NCBI RefSeq assembly: GCF_003935715.1
Contig: NZ_RHPP01000023.1
Location: 1-38,814 of the forward strand
DNA length: 38,814 nucleotides
Source of the DNA: Stenotrophomonas sp. 278
GTDB taxonomy: Bacteria > Pseudomonadota > Gammaproteobacteria > Xanthomonadales > Xanthomonadaceae
Reading direction: 5' to 3'
Positions 26,912-38,814 of the stretch are shown here, piece after piece. Under the pieces are notes generated by a model, which saw only the letters and a program-made list of their open reading frames with translations, searched no databases and was not told the DNA's origin. The position numbers and the translations under genes are program-made. Numbering within the stretch: position 1 is the first letter of the stretch; each line of letters starts with the position of its first letter.

Positions 26912-28522
<1,611 letters not shown>

Positions 28523-28536
28523 CCCGGAAGATGACC

Positions 28537-30519
28537 ATGTTCACCAAGATCCTGATCGCCAACCGCGGCGAAATTGCCTGCCGCGTCATCGCCACCTGCC
28601 AGCGCCTGGGCATTGCCACGGTGGCGGCGTATTCCGACGCCGACCGCAACGCACGGCATGTGCGGCTGGCCGACGAAGCGGTAGCGATTGGTCCGGCCCC
28701 GGCGCGCGAGAGCTATCTGCGCGCTGACGCGATCCTGGCCGCCGCGCGCCAGACCGGTGCACAGGCGATCCATCCGGGCTACGGCTTCCTTTCGGAAAAC
28801 GCGGACTTTGCCCAGGCGTGTGCCGATGCCGGGATCGTGTTCATCGGCCCGTCGGCGTCGGCGATCCGGGCGATGGGTGACAAGAGTGCGGCCAAGGCGC
28901 TGATGCAGCAGGCCGGCGTACCGCTGACCCCGGGTTACCACGGCGATGCCCAGGCACCGGATTTCCTGCGAGACCAGGCCGACGCCATCGGCTACCCGGT
29001 GCTGATCAAGGCCAGCGCCGGTGGCGGCGGCAAGGGCATGCGCCGGGTCGACGACAGCGCCGCCTTTGTAGATGCGCTGACCAGCTGCCAGCGCGAGGCA
29101 CAATCCGCGTTCGGCAATGCGCACGTGCTGGTGGAGAAGTACGTGGAGCGCCCGCGCCACATCGAGATCCAGGTGTTCGGCGACAGCCACGGCAACGTCG
29201 TATACCTGTTCGAGCGCGACTGCTCGGTGCAGCGTCGTCACCAGAAAGTGCTGGAAGAAGCGCCCGCGCCCGGCATGACGCCGGAGCGCCGCGCGGCAAT
29301 GGGCACTGCGGCGGTCAATGCCGCGCGCGCGGTGAACTATGTTGGCGCGGGCACGGTGGAGTTCATCGCCGGCCCGGATGGCGATTTCTACTTCATGGAA
29401 ATGAACACCCGCCTGCAGGTGGAACACCCGGTAACGGAATGCATCACCGGCACCGACCTGGTGGAGTGGCAGCTGCGCGTGGCCAGTGGTGAACCGCTGC
29501 CGCTGCAGCAGGAACAGCTGCAGATCCACGGTCATGCACTGGAGGCGCGTCTGTATGCGGAGGACGCAGACCGCGGATTCCTGCCCTCCACCGGCACGCT
29601 GCGGCACCTGCATCTGCCCGCGAACGGCACGCACGTGCGCGTGGACGCTGGCGTCGAACAGGGCGATGCGATCACCCCGTACTACGACCCGATGATCGCC
29701 AAGCTGATCGTCTGGGACGTGGACCGCGAGGCCGCGCTGCGGCGCATGCAGCAGGCGCTGGCCGAGTGCGAAGTGGTCGGCGTGACCACCAATGCCGCGT
29801 TCCTGCGCCGACTGGTGATGACCGACTCGTTTGCCGGTGCGAAGCTGGACACCGCGCTGATCGAGCGTGAGCACAGCGCCCTGGCACCGCCAACGGCGGT
29901 GGCCGACCCCGCTGTCTGGGCGCTGGCGGCGGTCGCCGTGATTGGAACCGAGGCGGCCGCGCACAGCGATGCGCACGACCCGCATTCCCCGTGGCAGGCC
30001 CGCGATGGCTGGCGACTCGGCCAGCGCGCGGGACGCGCGCTCACCCTGGAGCATGCGGGCACCCAGACCCGGGTCGACGTCACCGCCGACGGCGATGTGT
30101 GGACCGTCCAGGTGGAAGGACACGCCTTGCAGGCGCGCGGCAGCCTTGCTCGCGAATGGCTCTCCCTGCAGGTCGGCGACACCCTGCATCGTGCCCACAT
30201 CGTGCGCGACGGTGCGGACGTGTATCTGTTCGGCGGAGAAGGCGTACGCCGCCTCACCCTGCATGATCCGGTCAGCGAAGCGGACCAGAGCGTCGCCGAC
30301 GCCGGCAGTCTGCTGGCACCCATGCCCGGGCGCGTTGTCGCCACGCTGGTGGCGGCGGGCACCGCGGTGGCACGCGGCACGCCGCTGCTGGTGCTGGAGG
30401 CAATGAAGATGGAGCATACGCTGCAGGCTCCGGCTGACGGCACCGTGCAAGGCTACCGGGTCAAGGCGGGCGACCAGGTGGGCGATGGAGCCGTTCTGGT
30501 CGATTTTGAGGCGACCTGA
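28537..30519 (+). CDS. liuD: 3-methylcrotonyl-CoA carboxylase, alpha (biotin carboxylase) subunit
   Basis: A 660-residue biotin-dependent subunit. Residues 1-~445 are biotin carboxylase (KILIANRGEIACRVI, GYGFLSENADFAQ, KASAGGGGKGMR, ERDCSVQRRHQKVLEEAPAP, EMNTRLQVEHPVTE). A linking domain follows, and the C-terminal biotin carrier domain has the biotinyl lysine 624 in EAMKMEH. An ATG also occurs at 28531, but the GGAAG at 28526-28530 is spaced correctly only for the ATG at 28537, giving the family start MFTKILIANRG. It closes the liuABD operon and is followed by a hairpin terminator. Confidence 0.95.
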   Translation: MFTKILIANRGEIACRVIATCQRLGIATVAAYSDADRNARHVRLADEAVAIGPAPARESYLRADAILAAARQTGAQAIHPGYGFLSENADFAQACADAGIVFIGPSASAIRAMGDKSAAKALMQQAGVPLTPGYHGDAQAPDFLRDQADAIGYPVLIKASAGGGGKGMRRVDDSAAFVDALTSCQREAQSAFGNAHVLVEKYVERPRHIEIQVFGDSHGNVVYLFERDCSVQRRHQKVLEEAPAPGMTPERRAAMGTAAVNAARAVNYVGAGTVEFIAGPDGDFYFMEMNTRLQVEHPVTECITGTDLVEWQLRVASGEPLPLQQEQLQIHGHALEARLYAEDADRGFLPSTGTLRHLHLPANGTHVRVDAGVEQGDAITPYYDPMIAKLIVWDVDREAALRRMQQALAECEVVGVTTNAAFLRRLVMTDSFAGAKLDTALIEREHSALAPPTAVADPAVWALAAVAVIGTEAAAHSDAHDPHSPWQARDGWRLGQRAGRALTLEHAGTQTRVDVTADGDVWTVQVEGHALQARGSLAREWLSLQVGDTLHRAHIVRDGADVYLFGGEGVRRLTLHDPVSEADQSVADAGSLLAPMPGRVVATLVAAGTAVARGTPLLVLEAMKMEHTLQAPADGTVQGYRVKAGDQVGDGAVLVDFEAT

Positions 30520-30527
30520 GTGCTGAC

Positions 30528-30544
30528 GACGCGCAATGCGCGTC
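30528..30544. terminator. Hairpin between convergent liuD and the peptide maturation dehydrogenase
   Basis: GACGCGC (30528-30534) and GCGCGTC (30538-30544) form a perfect 7-bp stem with an AAT loop. It fits exactly in the 26-bp gap between two convergent stop codons, so it is likely a two-way terminator even though T-runs are lacking. Confidence 0.65.
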
Positions 30545-30545
30545 G

Positions 30546-31706
30546 CTAGGCGGGCCAGACCACGCGGTTGGGATCGAACTCGGTGGTGGTCAGGGTCCCG
30601 CTCCGCCAACCGACGCCGACCACGGCAACCGGTCCCTGGGTGATGCCATCCAGTCCAAACGCCTGCTCGATGTCCACGTCGTTGATGGCGGCAGTCACGA
30701 ATGCCGCCAGTCCACGTTCGGTGGCCGCCATGTACAGCGCCTGCGAGATATGGCCGATATCCAGAAGCAGCGCGCGATACGCCTTGGCGTGATTGCGGTA
30801 CTTCCACTGCGTGCGCGCAAAGCGCGGCACCAGTACCAGATGCGCGGCGGCATTGGAAAACCAGTCCTGCCCGGACACCATGCGTTCGGCGATCTCCTGT
30901 AGCGGCCGGTCAGATGGTCGCGGCAGGGCCGCCAGCGCATGCCTGATCGGATGATAGTGATACAGCCCGGGTTCCAGCCCCTGCACCCGCTGCACCAGCA
31001 GATAGGTTTCGGTGGCGTGGAGCCCGCCGCCTGAAGGCACGTGCTTCTTGAGGAACTGCGTGTCAGCGTCCACCTGCACCACCGCCTGTGCTTTCACCGT
31101 GCGCTGCAGCAGCTGTGCCAGCAGCTCGCTGCTGATGCTTCGTTCCGCGTCGAAGTTGCGGCAGGTGGTACGGCGCTCAAGCAGCCGGTCGTACTCCGTT
31201 GTCTCCACTGCCGGCAGCGCCTGGTAAGGCCCGGTCCGCTCCTGCACCGCCGGTGGAGGAACACCGAGCTGCTGACGCAGCTCCCTGGCGGTCACCATGT
31301 GGTTGTCGCGCATCTCCGCCGCACTGTTCACGCCTTGCCAGCGACCGTGACGGTGTGCCAACGCTGCAAGCGGCCACCAGTGCCCGTCGCGCACCGCTTC
31401 ATCGCGCTGGCGATGCGCGTGGTGCTGCGCGGCGTCGGATATCAGCAGGCCGGCTTCCAGCAGGCCCAGCCAGTCCCCTGACGAGTGGCTGACCTCATCT
31501 ACGGGTGTCCATTGGCGCGGGCTCAGCGCACCGAGCAGTTCACGCTGCGATGCCGTCACCGGCACGGGCTGCTCCAGGTGCGCGGCAAGCGCGAACCACG
31601 CAGTGGTCGAGGACAGTTCGGCGCGGCCGGCCAGAATCGCCGTAAGGTCCACGCTGACCTGTTCCCGGGGCTCGAACATGACAGTGGTGCAACGGCGCAG
31701 TTTCAT
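30546..31706 (-). CDS. Putative peptide maturation dehydrogenase (SagB-type flavoenzyme)
   Basis: A 386-residue protein in two parts. Residues 1-~160 are an uncharacterised N-terminal region that may bind the substrate peptide. Residues ~165-386 are an FMN nitroreductase fold of the SagB type: RRTTCRNFD (178-186), PSGGGLHATETYLLVQ (224-239), WKYRNHAKAYRALLLDIGHI (301-320) and GVGW near the end. I recall a family, 'putative peptide maturation dehydrogenase', restricted mainly to Xanthomonadaceae and found with the partners seen here. SagB enzymes oxidise azolines to azoles on ribosomal peptides. A GTG at 31721 is also open; the ATG at 31706 gives the MKLRRC start I consider more typical. It is divergent from the precursor peptide gene. 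Confidence 0.8.
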   Translation of the reverse strand: MKLRRCTTVMFEPREQVSVDLTAILAGRAELSSTTAWFALAAHLEQPVPVTASQRELLGALSPRQWTPVDEVSHSSGDWLGLLEAGLLISDAAQHHAHRQRDEAVRDGHWWPLAALAHRHGRWQGVNSAAEMRDNHMVTARELRQQLGVPPPAVQERTGPYQALPAVETTEYDRLLERRTTCRNFDAERSISSELLAQLLQRTVKAQAVVQVDADTQFLKKHVPSGGGLHATETYLLVQRVQGLEPGLYHYHPIRHALAALPRPSDRPLQEIAERMVSGQDWFSNAAAHLVLVPRFARTQWKYRNHAKAYRALLLDIGHISQALYMAATERGLAAFVTAAINDVDIEQAFGLDGITQGPVAVVGVGWRSGTLTTTEFDPNRVVWPA

Positions 31707-31887
31707 CAGGGAACCGACCACGGTGGGGTAGGCACATTCTAGAGGGCAGGAATGCAGGTGCGTGCCGCGTGTCCGGACGACGGCGGTTTCTGCGTTGGCC
31801 CGGAATCGCCAGGCGTCGCGGCGTCCGGAACTACATTACCGACCCCGTCGGCCGATAACCCTGACTCCTCCTACTGGATCAACTGCA
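31707..31887. promoter_or_regulatory. Divergent control region of the RiPP locus
   Basis: This 181-bp interval separates the dehydrogenase start from the precursor peptide start and must hold both promoters. I see no clear -35/-10 pair and only a weak ribosome-binding site (GGATC) before the peptide ATG. The frame of the peptide gene is open from 31762, but the preceding codons do not resemble leader sequence. Confidence 0.4.
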
Positions 31888-32190
31888 ATGAGCAGCGACA
31901 CCCCGGAACCGAACAAGATCGCCCCCGAAGCCGCCGCGCGCCTGGTGTCCCGTCTGATTGACGACGCCGGTTTCCGGGAGTTGTTCCAGAAGGACGCCAC
32001 CCGGGCACTGGCCGAGGTCGGCATTGACGTGGAGGCCCATCCGGACTGCTGCGATATCCAGCAGCTGGCCAGCGTGGAGGAGCTGCGCGCGGTGCAGGCG
32101 CAGCTGGAGAAGTACCTGAGCACGTCCTATCAGTCGATGCTGGTGCCGCATTGCTTCGAAGCGGGCAAGGCCAGCGACGCGCTGGAATGA
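31888..32190 (+). CDS. RiPP precursor peptide, nitrile-hydratase-leader-like (putative modified peptide)
   Basis: A 100-residue peptide. Residues ~14-47 (AARLVSRLIDDAGFRELFQK, then DATRALAEVGID) have the 'xxFRxxFxxDAxxALxExGI' pattern of nitrile hydratase alpha-like leaders used by RiPP precursors. A following stretch with Cys54-Cys55 leads to a helical segment, and the C-terminus (STSYQSMLVPHCFEAGKASD) with Ser/Thr/Tyr residues and Cys89 could be the core. No GG cleavage site is obvious. It is divergent from the SagB-type dehydrogenase and converges with the cyclase gene 24 bp away. I recall a matching family, 'putative modified peptide', in Xanthomonadaceae; this was not checked by search. 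Confidence 0.75.
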   Translation: MSSDTPEPNKIAPEAAARLVSRLIDDAGFRELFQKDATRALAEVGIDVEAHPDCCDIQQLASVEELRAVQAQLEKYLSTSYQSMLVPHCFEAGKASDALE

Positions 32191-32214
32191 ACCGGGTGCC
32201 AGCCTGCGTCCGGC

Positions 32215-34695
32215 CTACCGGGAACGCAGGCTGGCGTCAGCCAGAATGTCGTGCACGTTCAGCGGCTGCATCAGCTGCATGGATGCCAGTTCGGCGATCG
32301 CGCCGCCGCGATGGTCGAACAGCCACTCGTTCTGCTTCTGGAATGCTTCGGCATTGCCCAGCCGGCGCTGCACATCGCGCAGTACCACCCGCGCCTGCAC
32401 CGGCTCGGTACCATCCAGCAGAGGCCGCAGCAGCGCTTCGGCCTGGGCTGGCTGGTTCCTTCCCAGTTGCTGCATGGCCAGCACGATGGTGTGCCACTTG
32501 CCGATGACCGGACTCTTCTGGGCCCGGATGAGGGCCTCATGGTCGCGCAGCAGTTGATCAGCGCGCGCGAGGTCACCCTGGCGCTGGGCGAGATACGCAA
32601 GCGACAACACGCGCAGCAGGCGGTCGGACAGATTGGGACTGGCGGTGTCCTTCAGCAACGGCAGCAGCTGATTGGCCACGGCCGCCAGTGCAGCGGGGTT
32701 GCGTCGCTCACAGGCGGTATCCACGACCGCGTGCATCAGCAGCACATGCGTGCGGAAGTCGACTGACTCCGTTGGAGCGTCCTCGCTGGACAGGGCATCG
32801 GCCATGCCGGTGCAGTCGTCCTGGTCGGCGGCAAGCAGCACGCGAACGCGCTGGTGCATGATGGTCTGCAGCTCGTCGCGGGCCTTGGGCAGCTTTGCCA
32901 GCAGTGCCTGCGCATCCTTGTAGCGACGCTGGGCGATCAGCACGTCCACCCGTGTATCGCTGGCATCGCGACCGGTCAGCTGCTCGGCGGTCTGGAAACT
33001 GCGCAGCGCTTCGTCGTACCGGTTCGTGCCCAACTGGATCCAACCGGTGTAGCCGATCGGATAGGCACGCAGCGGAGCCTGCGGCACCGAGGCGGCTCGG
33101 GCATAGCGCTCGGCTTCCGCGTAGCGGTTGTCCATCAGCAGGAAGCCGGCGGTGTTGGCCTGTCCCGCGAACGAGTCGGGATAGACTTCGGCCAGCACGC
33201 GCCAGTCTTCCAGCGGCCAGCCGTCCGGGCGCAACTCGCTGTTCCAGGCTTTCAGGTACAGGCGCTCGCGGTGTGGCAACCGCTCATTGAGAGCGAGCGC
33301 CCGATGCAGGTGCGGCAGCGCTTCGGCGCGCTGGTCCATCCGCACGAGCAGCCTGGCCAGGCCCATGTGTGCCATGGCGAAGTCGGGATCAGCGTCCAGT
33401 GCGGCCTCGTAGAGCTTGGCGGCCTCGGTGAACCGGCGTCGGCCCAGCGCATTTTCCGCGAGGGCGAACGATTTGAGTGCCTGCAGATTGTCAGTGGACG
33501 CCTGCGGCAGCGGCACTGACTGCTGCACCGACGCCACGGTTTCGCCAAGGCCGGCACGCAGACGTCCGACCACGTCATCCACCGCGCCGACCACGGCGTC
33601 AGGGGTCTGTGCATTGGCGTGATAGCTGCGTACCACCGCGCGGCTGACCGGGTCGACCAGGTCCACTGCCACCCGATAATGCCCGTTTGACCGATGGATG
33701 CTGGGAGCCAGGACCATGCGCGCGCCCTCGCGCGAGGCCACGTCGCCGGCGAGGTTGCGGTCCAGTGCGCGTTCGACGGGCACGCGCAGCAACTCGCGCG
33801 ACTCCTTGACCTTGCTGTCGGCCAACACGTTCACGTAGCGCGACTGCTCCAGGCTCAGCTGCAGGGCACGCCGAAGGCTGTCATCGAACAAGGTGTCGCC
33901 GCTGGCGTTGTCGACATCGGCCAGCACGACCCAGTCGCGCTCGGCGAAGGCGATGGCCGGCTCGGGCCGCAGCAGGATCCACCCGCCAATACCCAGCACC
34001 GCCAGCAACGCCATTTCGGCAGCCAGCGCCGCCGGCCTGCGCCAGAGCGGCAGCTTGCGTTGCGCCTTGGGGGTGTGCCTGGGCATGCGCAGTGGGGCAA
34101 AACCCGGCTCGCCGACCTCGAACACCTCCTGGGGAGCGGGCACGCCCTTGAACAGCCATGGACCATGGGAGCGCCACTGAAGCTTCCCGGCCCGTTCGCC
34201 CAGTTCACTGCTGGCACGGCGGGAGAGCGACTCGGCGACCGAGGAGAGCAGGATCTGGCCCGGCCGGGCCAGCGCCATCAGGCGCGCCGCCATCGGCTTG
34301 GCCAGCCCTTCCACTTCCACCGGCTTGGCCCCGGCCTGGATCGCCTCGGGGCTGTTGTCCCAGATCAGCACTTCGCCCACGTGCAGCCCGGCACGGGCGC
34401 GCAGCGGAAGATTGCGCTGCTGCGCCAGCTTGTGCACTTCACGCTGGTAGTCCAGCGCGAAGCCCAGGCCATCAATGGCACGGTCGAACAGCAGGAACAG
34501 GCCATCGGACCGGTCGATCTGCTGGCCGTTCCACTGCTGCTGAAGTGCCAGCACCAGACGGTCGTGATGCTGGAACAGCTCGGCGGCGGCGGCATCGCCG
34601 ATGCGCTCGACCAGCACCAGCGAATCGCACAGGTCGGTGAACAGCAGGGCGCGAAGCTGCGGGGCCTGGGTCGACGTTCCGATGTCGCCGTTCAT
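32215..34695 (-). CDS. Putative peptide modification system cyclase (nucleotidyl cyclase, TM, TPR)
   Basis: An 826-residue protein. Residues ~12-195 are a class III nucleotidyl cyclase domain: metal Asp21 in LLFTDLCDSL, Asp64 in RSDGLFLLFD, and GLHVGEVL, MAARLMALARPGQILLSS. The expected catalytic Asn is Pro134 and the purine-specifying positions are non-canonical, while Arg137 is kept. A membrane helix follows at ~222-242 (ALAAEMALLAVLGIGGWILL), then a domain with WVVLADVDN and TPR-like helices from ~370 to the C-terminus. The family usually called 'putative peptide modification system cyclase' has this layout. The start at 34695 gives the cyclase N-terminus; upstream codons lie in the neighbouring gene. 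The CNB-GGDEF gene ends 13 bp upstream, so both are probably cotranscribed. Confidence 0.8.
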   Translation of the reverse strand: MNGDIGTSTQAPQLRALLFTDLCDSLVLVERIGDAAAAELFQHHDRLVLALQQQWNGQQIDRSDGLFLLFDRAIDGLGFALDYQREVHKLAQQRNLPLRARAGLHVGEVLIWDNSPEAIQAGAKPVEVEGLAKPMAARLMALARPGQILLSSVAESLSRRASSELGERAGKLQWRSHGPWLFKGVPAPQEVFEVGEPGFAPLRMPRHTPKAQRKLPLWRRPAALAAEMALLAVLGIGGWILLRPEPAIAFAERDWVVLADVDNASGDTLFDDSLRRALQLSLEQSRYVNVLADSKVKESRELLRVPVERALDRNLAGDVASREGARMVLAPSIHRSNGHYRVAVDLVDPVSRAVVRSYHANAQTPDAVVGAVDDVVGRLRAGLGETVASVQQSVPLPQASTDNLQALKSFALAENALGRRRFTEAAKLYEAALDADPDFAMAHMGLARLLVRMDQRAEALPHLHRALALNERLPHRERLYLKAWNSELRPDGWPLEDWRVLAEVYPDSFAGQANTAGFLLMDNRYAEAERYARAASVPQAPLRAYPIGYTGWIQLGTNRYDEALRSFQTAEQLTGRDASDTRVDVLIAQRRYKDAQALLAKLPKARDELQTIMHQRVRVLLAADQDDCTGMADALSSEDAPTESVDFRTHVLLMHAVVDTACERRNPAALAAVANQLLPLLKDTASPNLSDRLLRVLSLAYLAQRQGDLARADQLLRDHEALIRAQKSPVIGKWHTIVLAMQQLGRNQPAQAEALLRPLLDGTEPVQARVVLRDVQRRLGNAEAFQKQNEWLFDHRGGAIAELASMQLMQPLNVHDILADASLRSR

Positions 34696-34708
34696 GAGGG
34701 GATTCCCG

Positions 34709-35752
34709 TCAGGGCTTGGCGGTCGCGGCACGCGACCAGTGCAGGCGGTTACCGCCCAGGCGCTTGGCCTGGTAAAGCGCGTTGTCGGCGCGAGCGTACC
34801 ACTCGCTCCAGTCGGTGTGGGGCTCGAGCAGGCAGACCCCGATGCTGACCGGGCAGATGTTGGGGTGTGCGGTGACGCGGCCGAGCAGACCCTGGACGGC
34901 ACTGAGGACGAACTCGGCCGCATGCTGCAGGCTGTCGCGGTCGGCATGGCGCAGCAGCAGACAGAACTCGTCCCCGCCAAGGCGGCAGGCACGGTCGTCC
35001 TCGGTGGCGACCGACCGCAGGATGTTGGCCACGCTCTGCAGGACCCGGTCACCGGCCTGGTGGCCGTGCTCGTCGTTGACCTGCTTGAACTGGTCGCAGT
35101 CGATCAGCAGCAGGCCCTGGGGCGCACCGTGGTCGGTGCTGCGGCATTCCTGCAGGTACAGGGCCAGGCCGCGGCGGTTGTGCAGGCCGGTCAATTCGTC
35201 GGTGCGCACCAGTTCACGGGTGTGGGTGAGCTGGTGGGTGGTGACATACAGATTGTCGAGCGCGGCTTCGAGGTCGTGATTGCGACGGCGCAGCTGGCGG
35301 ATCAGGACCTGTTCATTGCTGACCACGCGCATGATGGTGCGGCGAAGGAAGTAGGCGACCATCCCCGGGTCGCGGTCGACCAGGCGCTGGAACTGGTCGT
35401 GGCCCAGTTCCAGCACGATGCTGTCGACGGTGGCGCGGGCGTCCGCGCTGCGCGGGTGGTCACCGATGAGCAGGCCGAGTTCGCCGAAGAATTCCTGCGG
35501 GCCAAGCGTCTTCACGACAAGGTCTTCGCCGAAGTCGAGCTCGATGCTGCCACTGACGATGACGTACATGGTGCCGCCGGCCTGACCACTGTGGAACAGG
35601 TAGTCGCCACTGCGCAGCTGCAGCTGCTGGCCGAATTCAGCGAAAAGTGCGAATTCACCGGCGCTCAGCACGGCATGCACGATGTCAGCCATCGCGGTTT
35701 CCGCGATGCCTGGTTCCTGCGCGCACACTTGCGTTGCAAACTTGCCGGTCAT
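34709..35752 (-). CDS. Cyclic-nucleotide-binding domain/GGDEF diguanylate cyclase
   Basis: A 347-residue cytoplasmic signalling protein. Residues ~25-145 are a CRP-like cNMP-binding domain; its phosphate-binding cassette FFGELGLLIGDHPRSADARA keeps Glu91, Arg101 and Ser102. A helical linker (~145-180, rich in Arg and Leu) joins the GGDEF domain (~180-340): DELTGLHNRRGL, DCDQFKQVNDEHGHQAGD and the active site GGDEF at 259-263. No RxxD product-inhibition site precedes it (TEDD occupies that place). It should make c-di-GMP in response to a cyclic nucleotide. The ATG at 35752 follows GGGAAG; an internal ATG at 35692 is also possible. The peptide-system cyclase gene follows 13 bp downstream. Confidence 0.88.
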   Translation of the reverse strand: MTGKFATQVCAQEPGIAETAMADIVHAVLSAGEFALFAEFGQQLQLRSGDYLFHSGQAGGTMYVIVSGSIELDFGEDLVVKTLGPQEFFGELGLLIGDHPRSADARATVDSIVLELGHDQFQRLVDRDPGMVAYFLRRTIMRVVSNEQVLIRQLRRRNHDLEAALDNLYVTTHQLTHTRELVRTDELTGLHNRRGLALYLQECRSTDHGAPQGLLLIDCDQFKQVNDEHGHQAGDRVLQSVANILRSVATEDDRACRLGGDEFCLLLRHADRDSLQHAAEFVLSAVQGLLGRVTAHPNICPVSIGVCLLEPHTDWSEWYARADNALYQAKRLGGNRLHWSRAATAKP

Positions 35753-35839
35753 CCCGTGCACCCGCTTCCCAGCGTCCCCCGGTGAGCAGACGAGGATAGC
35801 ACTCCTGAAAAGTGTGCGCCTCATCCCAGTTCCATTAAA

Positions 35840-35868
35840 AACGGCCAAAATTTCGGGTGTTGGCCGTT
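35840..35868. repeat. 9-bp inverted repeat upstream of the CNB-GGDEF gene
   Basis: AACGGCCAA (35840-35848) and TTGGCCGTT (35860-35868) pair perfectly around an 11-base spacer, in an unusually AT-rich patch. It lies 88 bp upstream of the CNB-GGDEF start and downstream of aceA. It may be an operator or a terminator. Confidence 0.45.
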
Positions 35869-35930
35869 GGCCCGTGGTGGGTGGAACGCGGGTTCGGGGG
35901 AGGAGCGGCCAGCGGATCATGTGAAGACGA

Positions 35931-35957
35931 AGGGTCCGGGCCATGCCCGGCACCCCC
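35931..35957 (-). terminator. REP-like hairpin after aceA
   Basis: CCGGGC (35936-35941) and GCCCGG (35945-35950) pair around a CAT loop, with flanking GGT/ACC pairs. On the minus strand it lies 18 bp after the aceA stop. It lacks GTAG but otherwise resembles the REP hairpins of this window, and probably ends or stabilises the aceA message. Confidence 0.6.
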
Positions 35958-35974
35958 GAGGCGTTGCGTGAAGA

Positions 35975-37267
35975 TCAGGCGGCTTGGCCGGCGCTGAACT
36001 GTTCTTCTTCGGTGGAGCCGGTCAGGGCGGTGGTGGAGGACTGGCCCTGCTGGATGGCCTGGGTGACCGCGTCGAAGTAGCCAGTGCCGACCTCGCGCTG
36101 GTGCTTCACCGCGGTGAAGCCGCGGTCGGCGGCGGCGAATTCGGCTTCCTGCAACTCCACGAAGGCGCTCATCTGGCGGCGGGCGTAGCCGTGGGCCAGG
36201 TTGAACATCGAGTAGTTCAAGGCGTGGAAACCCGCCAGGGTGATGAACTGGAACTTGTAACCGTAGCTGGCGATTTCCTTCTGGAACTTCGCAATCGTGG
36301 CGTCGTCCAGGTTCTTCTTCCAGTTGAAGCTCGGCGAGCAGTTGTAAGCCAGCAGCTTGCCCGGGAACTTTGCGTGGATCGCCTCGGCGAACTTCCGCGC
36401 GAACTCCAGGTCCGGCTTGCCGGTTTCACACCAGATCAGGTCAGCGTAGGGCGCATACGCCAGGCCGCGGCTGATCGCCTGGTCCAGGCCGTTGCGGGTG
36501 CGGTAGAAGCCTTCGGGGGTGCGCTCACCGGTGGTGAACGGCTGGTCGTTGCCGTCGATGTCGCTGGTCAGCAGGTCGGCGGCCTCGGCATCGGTACGCG
36601 CCACCAGCAGGGTCGGCACGCCCAGCACATCGGCAGCCAGGCGCGCGGCGTTCAACTTCTCGATCGCCTCGCGGGTCGGCACCAGCACCTTGCCCCCCAT
36701 GTGACCGCACTTCTTCACCGAGGCCAGCTGGTCCTCGAAATGCACGCCGGCTGCGCCCGCTTCGATCATGGCCTTCATCAGTTCGAAGGCATTGAGCACG
36801 CCACCGAAGCCCGCTTCGGCATCCGCCACGATCGGCTGCAGGAAGTCGATCTCGTCCTTGCCTTCCGCGTGGTGCAGCTGGTCGGCGCGCAGCAGCGTGT
36901 TGTTGATCCGCTTCACCACCGCCGGCACCGAATCGGCCGGATACAGCGACTGGTCCGGATACATCTGGCCGGCCAGGTTGGCATCGGCCGCCACCTGCCA
37001 GCCCGACAGGTAGATCGCATTCAGACCCGCCTTCACCTGCTGCATCGCCTGGTTGCCGGTCAGCGCGCCGAGTGCGTTGACGAAATCCTTTTCATGCAGG
37101 TACTTCCACAGCTTTTCCGCGCCCAACCGGGCCAGCGAGTGCTCCACGTGCACCGTGCCGCGCAGGCGCACCACGTCGGCGGCGGTGTAGTTGCGGGTGA
37201 TGCCGGCCCAGCGCGGGTCGGTGTTCCATTCGTGCTGGATCTGTTCGGCGGTCTGCAGCTTGCTCAT
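35975..37267 (-). CDS. aceA: Isocitrate lyase
   Basis: A 430-residue glyoxylate-shunt enzyme that splits isocitrate into succinate and glyoxylate. The catalytic signature KKCGHMGGK is intact, with [10 protein letters not shown] just before it; [11 protein letters not shown] and [14 protein letters not shown] are further conserved segments. Length matches the usual ~430 of the E. coli type. The ATG at 37267 follows an AGGTGA-like site. aceB lies upstream on the same strand, 89 bp away, with a pair of REP hairpins between, so it is likely an aceBA operon. Confidence 0.97.
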
Positions 37268-37290
37268 GTCGGTTCTCCAGGTGATGGGAC

Positions 37291-37350
37291 AGCGGGGCAG
37301 AGCCCCGCTCTACAAGTGATCGTGGGTGTAGAGCGGGGCTCTGCCCCGCT
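37291..37350. repeat. Head-to-head pair of SMAG-type REP hairpins between aceB and aceA
   Basis: AGCGGGGCAGAGCCCCGCTCTAC (37291-37313) is followed by its inverted copy starting GTAGAGCGGGGCTCTGCCCC (37328-37350). The CTAC and GTAG ends face each other, and the two units could pair into one long stem. It differs from the other copies by GCGGGG arms in place of GCCGGG. Confidence 0.85.
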
Positions 37351-37356
37351 GGCGGA

Positions 37357-38814
37357 TCAATCCAACCGGTCGTAAGCCGGCAACGTCAGAAAATCGGTCA
37401 ACTGATCGCGCCGGCTCAGCTCGCCCAGCAGCGCAATCGCCTCTTCAATCCGCGCCCCTCCGGGCAGCGCGCTGCGATCACCCAGCCGCGCCGGGAGGCC
37501 GGCCAAGGTTGCGTCCAGCAGCGCCAGATCAATCGCGGTGCCGTCGTCCAGGTGCTGGCCTGGCACGTGCAGCCACTGCCACAACTGGCTGCGGCTGATC
37601 TCGGCGGTGGCGGCGTCTTCCATCAGGTGATGGATCGGCACGCAGCCATTGCCGTCCAACCACGCGGCCAGATAGCGCACGCAGACTTCCACGTTGCCCT
37701 CGAAGCCGGCGCGGGTGATCGTGCCGGCGGGCGTGGCAATCAACGCATCGCGATTCACCTTCACGTCCCGGCGCAGCACGTCATGCTGATTCGGCCCGGG
37801 CATGTGCTCGTCGAAGATCGCCTGCGCCACCGGAATCAGCGCCGGGTGCGCCACCCAGGTGCCGTCATGGCCGGCGGTGACTTCGCGCAGCTTGTCCGCC
37901 CGCACCCGCGCCATCGCCTGCTCGTTGGCGGCGGCATCGTGGTTGATCGGAATCTGCGCGGCCATGCCGCCCATCGCATGTGCACCACGGCGGTGGCAGG
38001 TCTGGATCAGCAGCTCCGAATACGCCTTCAGGAACGGCTGGGTCATGGTCACCTGGCCACGCTCGGGCAGCACCTTGTCCGGGTGCGCGCGGAAGGTCTT
38101 GATGTACGAGAAGATGTAATCCCAGCGCCCGCAGTTCAAACCGACGATCCGGTCGCGCAGCGCGTGCAGGATCTCGTCCATCTCGAACACCGCCGGCAGG
38201 GTTTCGATCAGCACCGTCACCTTGATCTGCCCGTGCGGCAGGCCGAGCATGCCTTCGATGTGCGACAGCGCGGTCTCCCACAGCGCGGCCTCCTCCATCG
38301 ACTGCAGCTTGGGCAGGTAGAAGTACGGGCCACGCTGGCGGCACATCAGGGTGCGGGCGTTGTGGAAGGCGAACACCGCCGCGTCGAACAGACCACCGGC
38401 CAGCGGCTGGCCGTCGATACGCACGTGCTTCTCGTCCAGGTGCCAGCCGCGCGGACGCACGATCAGCACTGCCTGTTCCTGCAGCGGGCGCAGCGCGTAG
38501 TGCTTGCCCGGCTTGCCGTCCACGCCGGGGCCGGTGAAGGTCAGGTCGCCGCGCACCGCGCCGATCAGGGCCTGCTGGCCGGCCAGCACGTTGCGCCAGG
38601 CCGGGGCGGTGGAATCCTCGAAGTCGGCCATGAACACCTTGGCCCCGGAGTTCAGCGCGTTGATCACCATCTTCGGGTCGGTCGGCCCGGTGATCTCCAC
38701 GCGGCGGTCCTGCAGGGCGTCCGGAATCGGGGCGACCTTCCAGTCGTCGGCGCGGATATGCGCGGTGTCGGCGCGGAAGTCCGGCAGCTCGCCGGCGTCG
38801 AAACGCGCCTGGCG
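37357..38814 (-). CDS. aceB: Malate synthase A, C-terminal part (runs off right edge)
   Basis: The frame runs to the window edge without a stop, so the N-terminus lies outside; about 485 residues are visible of the usual ~530. VEITGPTDPKMVINALNSGA, MADFEDSTAPAWRN and VRPRGWHLDEKH mark malate synthase A, and TVLIETLPAVFEMDEILHAL and LNCGRWDYIFSYIKT are the magnesium-binding and acetyl-CoA segments. It condenses glyoxylate with acetyl-CoA to malate, taking the product of the aceA enzyme encoded downstream. An internal GTG or ATG within the frame should not be taken as the start. Confidence 0.95.
   Translation of the reverse strand, partial: RQARFDAGELPDFRADTAHIRADDWKVAPIPDALQDRRVEITGPTDPKMVINALNSGAKVFMADFEDSTAPAWRNVLAGQQALIGAVRGDLTFTGPGVDGKPGKHYALRPLQEQAVLIVRPRGWHLDEKHVRIDGQPLAGGLFDAAVFAFHNARTLMCRQRGPYFYLPKLQSMEEAALWETALSHIEGMLGLPHGQIKVTVLIETLPAVFEMDEILHALRDRIVGLNCGRWDYIFSYIKTFRAHPDKVLPERGQVTMTQPFLKAYSELLIQTCHRRGAHAMGGMAAQIPINHDAAANEQAMARVRADKLREVTAGHDGTWVAHPALIPVAQAIFDEHMPGPNQHDVLRRDVKVNRDALIATPAGTITRAGFEGNVEVCVRYLAAWLDGNGCVPIHHLMEDAATAEISRSQLWQWLHVPGQHLDDGTAIDLALLDATLAGLPARLGDRSALPGGARIEEAIALLGELSRRDQLTDFLTLPAYDRLD

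Follow-up and report, generated by a model that had tools for sequence, protein, structure and literature searches.

What do a short peptide gene, a flavin dehydrogenase gene and a “cyclase” gene, found side by side at 30546..34695 of a Stenotrophomonas sp. 278 contig, have to do with one another? The window (the whole stretch of DNA analyzed) comprises the 38,814 nucleotides of contig NZ_RHPP01000023.1, assembly GCF_003935715.1. The original prediction had taken the genes for a three-part, undescribed locus making a ribosomally synthesized and post-translationally modified peptide (RiPP). Its gene layout was confirmed: the peptide gene is divergent from the dehydrogenase gene, with a spacing of 181 bp, and convergent with the cyclase gene, with 24 bp separating their stop codons. 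The three genes are real; the prediction left out a fourth, since the conserved unit reaches past 30546..34695 and takes in a cNMP-binding GGDEF gene at 34709-35953. What is new here is that the tail of the peptide co-diversifies with the TPR sensor of the cyclase and not with its catalytic or post-membrane domain. The four genes are as follows.

31888..32190, + strand: peptide (precursor/signal) gene, 100 amino acids (translation; TIGR04509 match)
30546..31706, - strand: SagB-type flavin mononucleotide (FMN) dehydrogenase gene, 386 amino acids (TIGR04511 match)
32215..34695, - strand: gene for a membrane class III nucleotidyl cyclase with TPR sensor, 826 amino acids (TIGR04510 match; XC_0250-type)
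34709..35953, - strand: cNMP-binding and GGDEF gene, XC_0249-type cyclic GMP (cGMP) receptor, start codon uncertain (PF00990, 140 bits; PF00027, 72.5 bits)

All curated cut-offs were exceeded in the NCBIfam search: the peptide scored 75.9 bits against TIGR04509 (cut-off 34), the dehydrogenase 526 bits against TIGR04511 (cut-off 240) and the cyclase 1024.1 bits against TIGR04510 (cut-off 400). The families to which the original prediction pointed exist under its descriptions; their titles are nitrile hydratase leader peptide (NHLP)-related RiPP peptide, putative peptide maturation dehydrogenase and putative peptide modification system cyclase. That they travel together in Xanthomonadaceae/Lysobacterales was borne out. 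Each was above cut-off in the identical 32 of 151 genomes of the order, with no genome holding one or two only, and the chance of two random subsets of this size coinciding is ∼10^-33 (relatedness ignored). Within one genus, one genome (G001) has all three genes and another (G111) none, and therefore their presence or absence is joint. The unit adjoins a second-messenger operon in 28 of the 32 genomes; it is present complete and twice in tandem in G110, and is split across two contigs in the neighbour listing of G025. Eighty further regions, found via the dehydrogenase alone and chosen from the strongest of 236 dehydrogenase-positive genomes (not a random draw), all contain the peptide, cyclase and cNMP-GGDEF genes. 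The dehydrogenase was above cut-off in 236 of 395 genomes of a family sample and in 8 of 398 genomes of a phylum-wide sample, every one of them from this order. Stenotrophomonas, Xanthomonas, Lysobacter and their relatives commonly carry the system; the prediction depended on leader-family homologues of the peptide and on co-occurrence of the genes, and both were found.

The cyclase was divided into the following parts.

34084..34668, - strand: catalytic domain, residues 10-204
33970..34035, - strand: predicted membrane helix, residues 221-242, with basic residues on its N-terminal side (KAQRKLPLWRRP; model helix H221-242 and sequence)
32218..33513, - strand: TPR sensor region, residues ∼395-826, predicted to lie outside the cytoplasm, co-diversifying with the peptide tail (TPR models, all-helical model, correlation)

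The original prediction had treated this protein as a peptide-modification enzyme. A peptide-cyclising role of TIGR04510 was rejected because the fold is that of a class III nucleotidyl cyclase; the TIGR04510 protein is such a cyclase with a membrane helix, the orthologue of XC_0250, and fold, helix and TPR are all present in the window cyclase. PF00211, the class III Pfam model, gave no match in the Pfam domain scan. In the available parts of An et al. (PMC3770947), XC_0250 of Xanthomonas campestris is a guanylate cyclase that makes cGMP, and XC_0249 is a cGMP receptor activated by it. The residues D41, D71, L73, A150, L157 and A161 of An et al. all occur in the window cyclase, with a shift of 7, and are exact in 10 of 16 named relatives. 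Judged by these residues, the window protein is an XC_0250-type guanylate cyclase and would synthesize cGMP as reported for XC_0250. Likewise, the cNMP-GGDEF protein has 5h5o as its best PDB match and is almost identical to it, with its guanine-site Asn-Glu aligned to the NE of 5h5o; by sequence it matches the cGMP receptor XC_0249. Because the cyclase is XC_0250-type and coupled to an XC_0249-type receptor gene, the locus combines a peptide-maturation pair with a known second-messenger relay and is more than a simple RiPP cluster of three genes. The cyclase, then, is not undescribed; for the three families, no product was found in the open-access literature searched.

In the same partial source, D41 is a metal ligand and L157/A161 is the replaced transition-state pair. 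The published mapping may be shifted, since two residues that never vary in the alignment, D28 (D21 in the window) and the AARL Arg (window R138), stand where the canonical residues would be expected. Residues touched by this question are D21, D34, D64, R138, L150 and A154 in window numbering. Cyclase residues ∼250-383 may be FlgO/TolB-like.

Co-diversification was assessed in two sets of loci. Set 1 was drawn from 80 named loci (the best 80 of 288 relatives), of which 61 had all five genes and 47 were kept under 92% cyclase identity. For set 2, 55 of 80 regions were under 98% cyclase identity to set 1 and 47 were kept. Note that the sets have genera in common, so that set 2 repeats the test without adding an independent phylogeny. 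Partial correlations were controlled for GGDEF and isocitrate lyase distances, with 5,000 permutations. The peptide adjoining the cyclase was used for each locus; using the best-scoring peptide instead gave 0.546 for the sensor (versus 0.49-0.56) and took the wrong paralogue in L126.

Tail distances in set 1 were correlated with those of the three thirds of the TPR region (partial r 0.55, 0.49 and 0.56; P at the floor of 0.0002), as against −0.03 for the catalytic domain, 0.11 for the membrane segment and −0.08 for the post-membrane domain. Set 2 gave 0.63, 0.62 and 0.60 for the sensor thirds, −0.03 for the catalytic domain and 0.04 for the post-membrane domain. A sliding scan placed a step near cyclase column 375-400 with no increase toward the peptide-proximal end: sensor residues 475-525, ∼1 kb off, gave 0.50, the adjacent end 0.41, and values past the domain border were ∼0. 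This step is present in both locus sets. Mean distances for sensor and tail were 0.60-0.78 versus 0.23-0.28 for the catalytic domain, an about twofold faster divergence. Peptide and sensor alleles co-vary and the output is constant, as a pherotype demands, and linkage may be the cause.

Close pairs of loci, those with catalytic domains at least 90% identical in set 1 (n = 24), gave Spearman coefficients between tail identity and identity of the sensor, dehydrogenase, post-membrane domain and GGDEF protein of 0.86, 0.65, 0.11 and −0.08, respectively. For 124 overlapping pairs of set 2, values were 0.88 for the sensor, 0.82 for the leader, 0.50 and 0.38 for the dehydrogenase, 0.30 for GGDEF and 0.16 for the catalytic domain; the L269 rows are unfit for the enzyme, as a second dehydrogenase lies nearer the cyclase and the distal one was compared. 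Sensor and peptide, with or without the enzyme, are replaced between conserved flanks in close pairs. DNA identity between L173 and L176 is 88-100% up to the sensor, 51-70% across the sensor and most of the peptide, and mostly 92-99% in the dehydrogenase; the L129/L130 profile is similar (62-76% across the sensor), and the change of sensor and tail without the enzyme rests on these two pairs. In L137/L178, L145/L172 and L138/L140 the divergent stretch includes the dehydrogenase, and identity recovers past it. For five set 2 pairs the drop starts ∼1.7-2.1 kb ahead of the cyclase stop, near the membrane helix. The window itself, compared with L128, has 92-96% identity in GGDEF, mostly 86-94% in the catalytic domain, 58-78% in the sensor and 54-82% in peptide and dehydrogenase.

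Three short conserved features of the dehydrogenase and the peptide are as follows.

30798..30803, - strand: dehydrogenase residues Lys302-Tyr303 (unchanged in all 25 sequences aligned)
32146..32160, + strand: tail motif P87-H-C-F90-E91 of the peptide, predicted modification site F90 (conservation; site by analogy with PflD)
32047..32049, + strand: conserved Cys54 of the peptide, in the region ahead of the LASKE-like motif

The dehydrogenase has an FMN oxidase fold and scored 120.2 bits against the SagB family model TIGR03605 (cut-off 78.4). Its nearest folds are the azoline oxidases McbC, ThcOx and BmdC; these and the cyclodipeptide oxidase AlbAB share the fold, but their partner cyclodehydratase or substrate class is absent here. 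Lys302-Tyr303 aligns with the WKY of ThcOx/CyaGox and is, we assume, the catalytic Lys-Tyr pair of azoline oxidases. YcaO was not found in the locus, and was above cut-off in 1 of the 32 genomes with all three families and not in the window genome (control: E. coli, which scored).

The 138 peptides collected gave 131 distinct sequences; one with an internal stop was excluded, and the remaining 130 were reduced to 109 at 85% identity. Unless otherwise stated, percentages refer to these 109. The leader core is L-D-D-F-R-F, and Ala stands in the LASK-like motif in 91%. The most conserved tail column is that of F90 (Phe 44%, Leu 37%, together 81%); the column after it is Glu in 49% and Asp in 7%, and the column ahead of it is Cys in just 22%. 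None of the tail columns is dominated by Cys, Ser or Thr, and Cys after the LASKE-like motif is missing in 74 of the 131 distinct tails. Cys54 is kept in 83% of peptides although a conserved tail Cys is missing. According to the sections available of Ouyang et al. 2025 (PMC12636437), PflD needs no YcaO to dehydrogenate a Phe of its NHLP precursor, a reaction carried out by its nitroreductase domain; the residue after this Phe is an Asp hydroxylated by the fused MNIO, and further YcaO-free nitroreductases are suggested as possible sources of dehydroamino acids. By analogy with PflD we favour dehydrogenation of the conserved tail Phe/Leu (F90 here).

Sensor, peptide and often the enzyme form a variable input half, and the cNMP-GGDEF protein and catalytic domain a constant output half, as in ligand-receptor pherotypes; the modified tail is therefore proposed as the ligand of the sensor. 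Whether the peptide-maturation pair feeds a modified-peptide signal to the membrane guanylate cyclase, which would act through cGMP on cyclic di-GMP (c-di-GMP), with matching alleles exchanged, we judge to be evenly poised between yes and no. The fuller version, put forward tentatively and held a little short of even, is a Gram-negative pherotype system in which a peptide with a folded leader would be oxidised by a SagB-type enzyme independently of YcaO and would be the allele-specific ligand of the cyclase, driving cGMP/c-di-GMP. The 100-residue precursor would be bound by the dehydrogenase through its folded leader, and the enzyme would carry out a two-electron oxidation of the C-terminal tail with no YcaO cyclodehydratase, most likely an α,β-dehydrogenation of F90. 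The tail, released or still attached, would reach the TPR sensor across the membrane and alter cGMP output; cGMP would bind the neighbouring cNMP-GGDEF protein and c-di-GMP would rise. Sensor and peptide, often with the dehydrogenase, would be swapped as matching alleles, the cytoplasmic output half staying constant. The present data establish gene content, co-occurrence, orthology with XC_0250/XC_0249, folds, the rarity of YcaO, co-diversification and mosaic alleles; that the peptide is modified, and where, that it is exported, that it binds the sensor and that it affects the cyclase we infer. If this proposal is true, the missing input of the XC_0250/XC_0249 pathway is a RiPP that signals to a class III cyclase, a cyclic nucleotide receives its input directly from an allele-specific peptide signal, and a new setting is added for the dehydrogenation of ribosomal peptides without YcaO. 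One hypothesis would then join two questions, the role of the orphan TIGR04509-04511 families and the signal behind the Xanthomonas cGMP pathway.

Several findings weigh against the ligand proposal. About one-fifth of tails lack F/L at the proposed site, and the locus yielded no exporter, protease or signal peptide. The tail also tracks dehydrogenase residues 101-165 (0.52 in set 1, 0.46 in set 2; residues 1-100 gave 0.29 and 0.15 and the remainder 0.36 and 0.33), and the leader correlates with everything tested (0.25-0.55, set 1). Among the close pairs of set 2, tail identity is also tied to that of the post-membrane domain (rho 0.73), which speaks against a sharp border there. Error rates are inflated in partial Mantel tests, and the pairs share loci. 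The part of An et al. (PMC3770947) available reports that the cyclase domain by itself restores biofilm, and therefore the sensor is dispensable for basal output; independent replication of this one group's cGMP work was not found in the literature searched. Furthermore, six actinomycete genomes carry peptide and dehydrogenase without a TIGR04510 match (Streptomyces L136, L141, L142, L144 and L148; Kribbella L143). This pair has likely moved between phyla and, because it stands there without the cyclase, can serve another purpose in actinomycetes. Up to five peptides occur in Kribbella L143, and a putative MFS-like gene (label by inspection) adjoins the dehydrogenase in L136 and L143.

The main rival, which we consider unlikely but weighty, is linkage only: the tail-to-tail 3′ ends would share recombination tracts, the sensor having another input and the peptide another role. 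The peptide 3′ end adjoins the sensor 3′ end, so that a single tract would move both; the short distance between the stop codons, the contiguity of the replaced tracts and the correlation of the leader with the sensor are also as linkage would have them. The absence of distance decay followed by the step to ∼0 at the domain border, the recurrence of this step in both sets and the roughly twofold divergence of sensor and tail over the catalytic domain all argue the other way. A little less probable is an ordinary RiPP natural product, e.g., an antimicrobial. The cyclase would then do no more than monitor or control its production, and co-diversification would reflect toxin-immunity-style pairing or self-sensing. 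NHLP precursors usually yield secreted products, antibiotic activity of Pseudomonas Os17 reportedly falls upon loss of Os1348, and multi-copy peptides with diverse tails and the cyclase-free units of actinomycetes would fit as well; an exporter or protease was not found among conserved neighbours, however, and the unit stands beside the second-messenger operon in most genomes of the order that have it.

A third possibility, which we regard as improbable, gives the folded peptide a role inside the cell: it would act there as a regulator or as redox partner of the dehydrogenase and would never be cut down to a small product. Relatives have a leader that folds as a domain, Os17 lysates are reported to contain full-length precursor (available part of PMC12636437) and export features were not found, but the fast-evolving tail tracks an extracytoplasmic sensor. 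A classical thiazole/oxazole-modified peptide, its azolines oxidised by the dehydrogenase, would account for the SagB match and the invariant Lys-Tyr pair; it is largely refuted and very improbable, because YcaO is missing from the locus and below cut-off in 31 of 32 genomes and tails lack conserved Cys, Ser or Thr, and an azole product was rejected on these grounds.

Among known systems, the TIGR04509-04511 models match all three proteins and give neither product nor mechanism, and the title “modification system cyclase” hides a nucleotidyl cyclase. The XC_0250/XC_0249 pathway has the same cyclase family, residues in register and an adjacent cNMP-GGDEF gene, but peptide and dehydrogenase are unmentioned and the input signal is left open in the portion of PMC3770947 available. 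The Pseudomonas pfl/pos clusters, including Os1348-1351 of Os17, share an NHLP precursor, a SagB/nitroreductase-type enzyme, Phe dehydrogenation and the lack of YcaO, but there the nitroreductase is part of a fusion with an MNIO, transporters as well as GNAT and HEXXH enzymes stand alongside it, and a cyclase is absent (PMC12636437 and PMC7726476, parts available). In agr, the modifying enzyme, peptide and sensor part co-vary and the output part is conserved. The same is described for ComQXPA in the available part of PMC4408185. Here, in contrast to these two, a guanylate cyclase takes the place of the histidine kinase as candidate receptor, the host is Gram-negative, the leader is a folded NHLP leader and the signalling is a proposal. 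No paper linking the peptide or dehydrogenase to XC_0250 was found in the open-access literature searched (subscription journals lie mostly outside it), where the TIGR names and model titles gave one hit, on a different system.

The remaining features of the region are as follows.

31707..31887, no strand: intergenic region between the divergent peptide and dehydrogenase genes (open reading frame (ORF) coordinates)
32191..32240, no strand: strong hairpin, candidate bidirectional terminator without a U run (folding of 32175-32240)
35975..37267, - strand: isocitrate lyase, conserved upstream neighbour outside the peptide system (NF011645, 817 bits; region of 24 of 32 genomes)
37357..38700, - strand: putative malate-synthase-like ORF (label by inspection), conserved upstream neighbour (ORF; same cluster in 22 genomes)

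Positions 32175-32240 fold at −38.3 kcal/mol (z −4.68), and the hairpin takes in the spacer that separates the two convergent stop codons as well as the start of the cyclase 3′ coding end. A terminator scan of 30400-38200 gave no intrinsic terminators. No CRP-like sites were found in 31707-31887 at two or fewer mismatches; matches across the window numbered 5, versus 12.45 expected. Directly beyond the dehydrogenase, at 26912-30519, lies an acyl-CoA carboxylase-like pair (a 536-amino acid ORF and a 662-amino acid biotin carboxylase), a conserved neighbour in 10 genomes and outside the unit.

Copy number varies among the loci. L111 (G091:C2:524764-530965) has five near-identical tandem peptide genes; its cyclase match begins at profile position 126, and a cNMP-GGDEF gene was not found nearby. 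Extra peptides, in some loci with a second dehydrogenase, occur in L126, L128, L145, L242 and L269, with an extra cyclase absent beside the unit. Second cyclase-family genes, near the unit or apart, are present at L110 (G096:C1:419530-421332), L104 (G073:C175), L189 (10888-13005), L125 (10659-13634) and L127 (11013-13634). In G096 and G073 the match is confined to the part of the profile from position 206 or 213 on, so that membrane helix and TPR are kept and the cyclase domain is missing.

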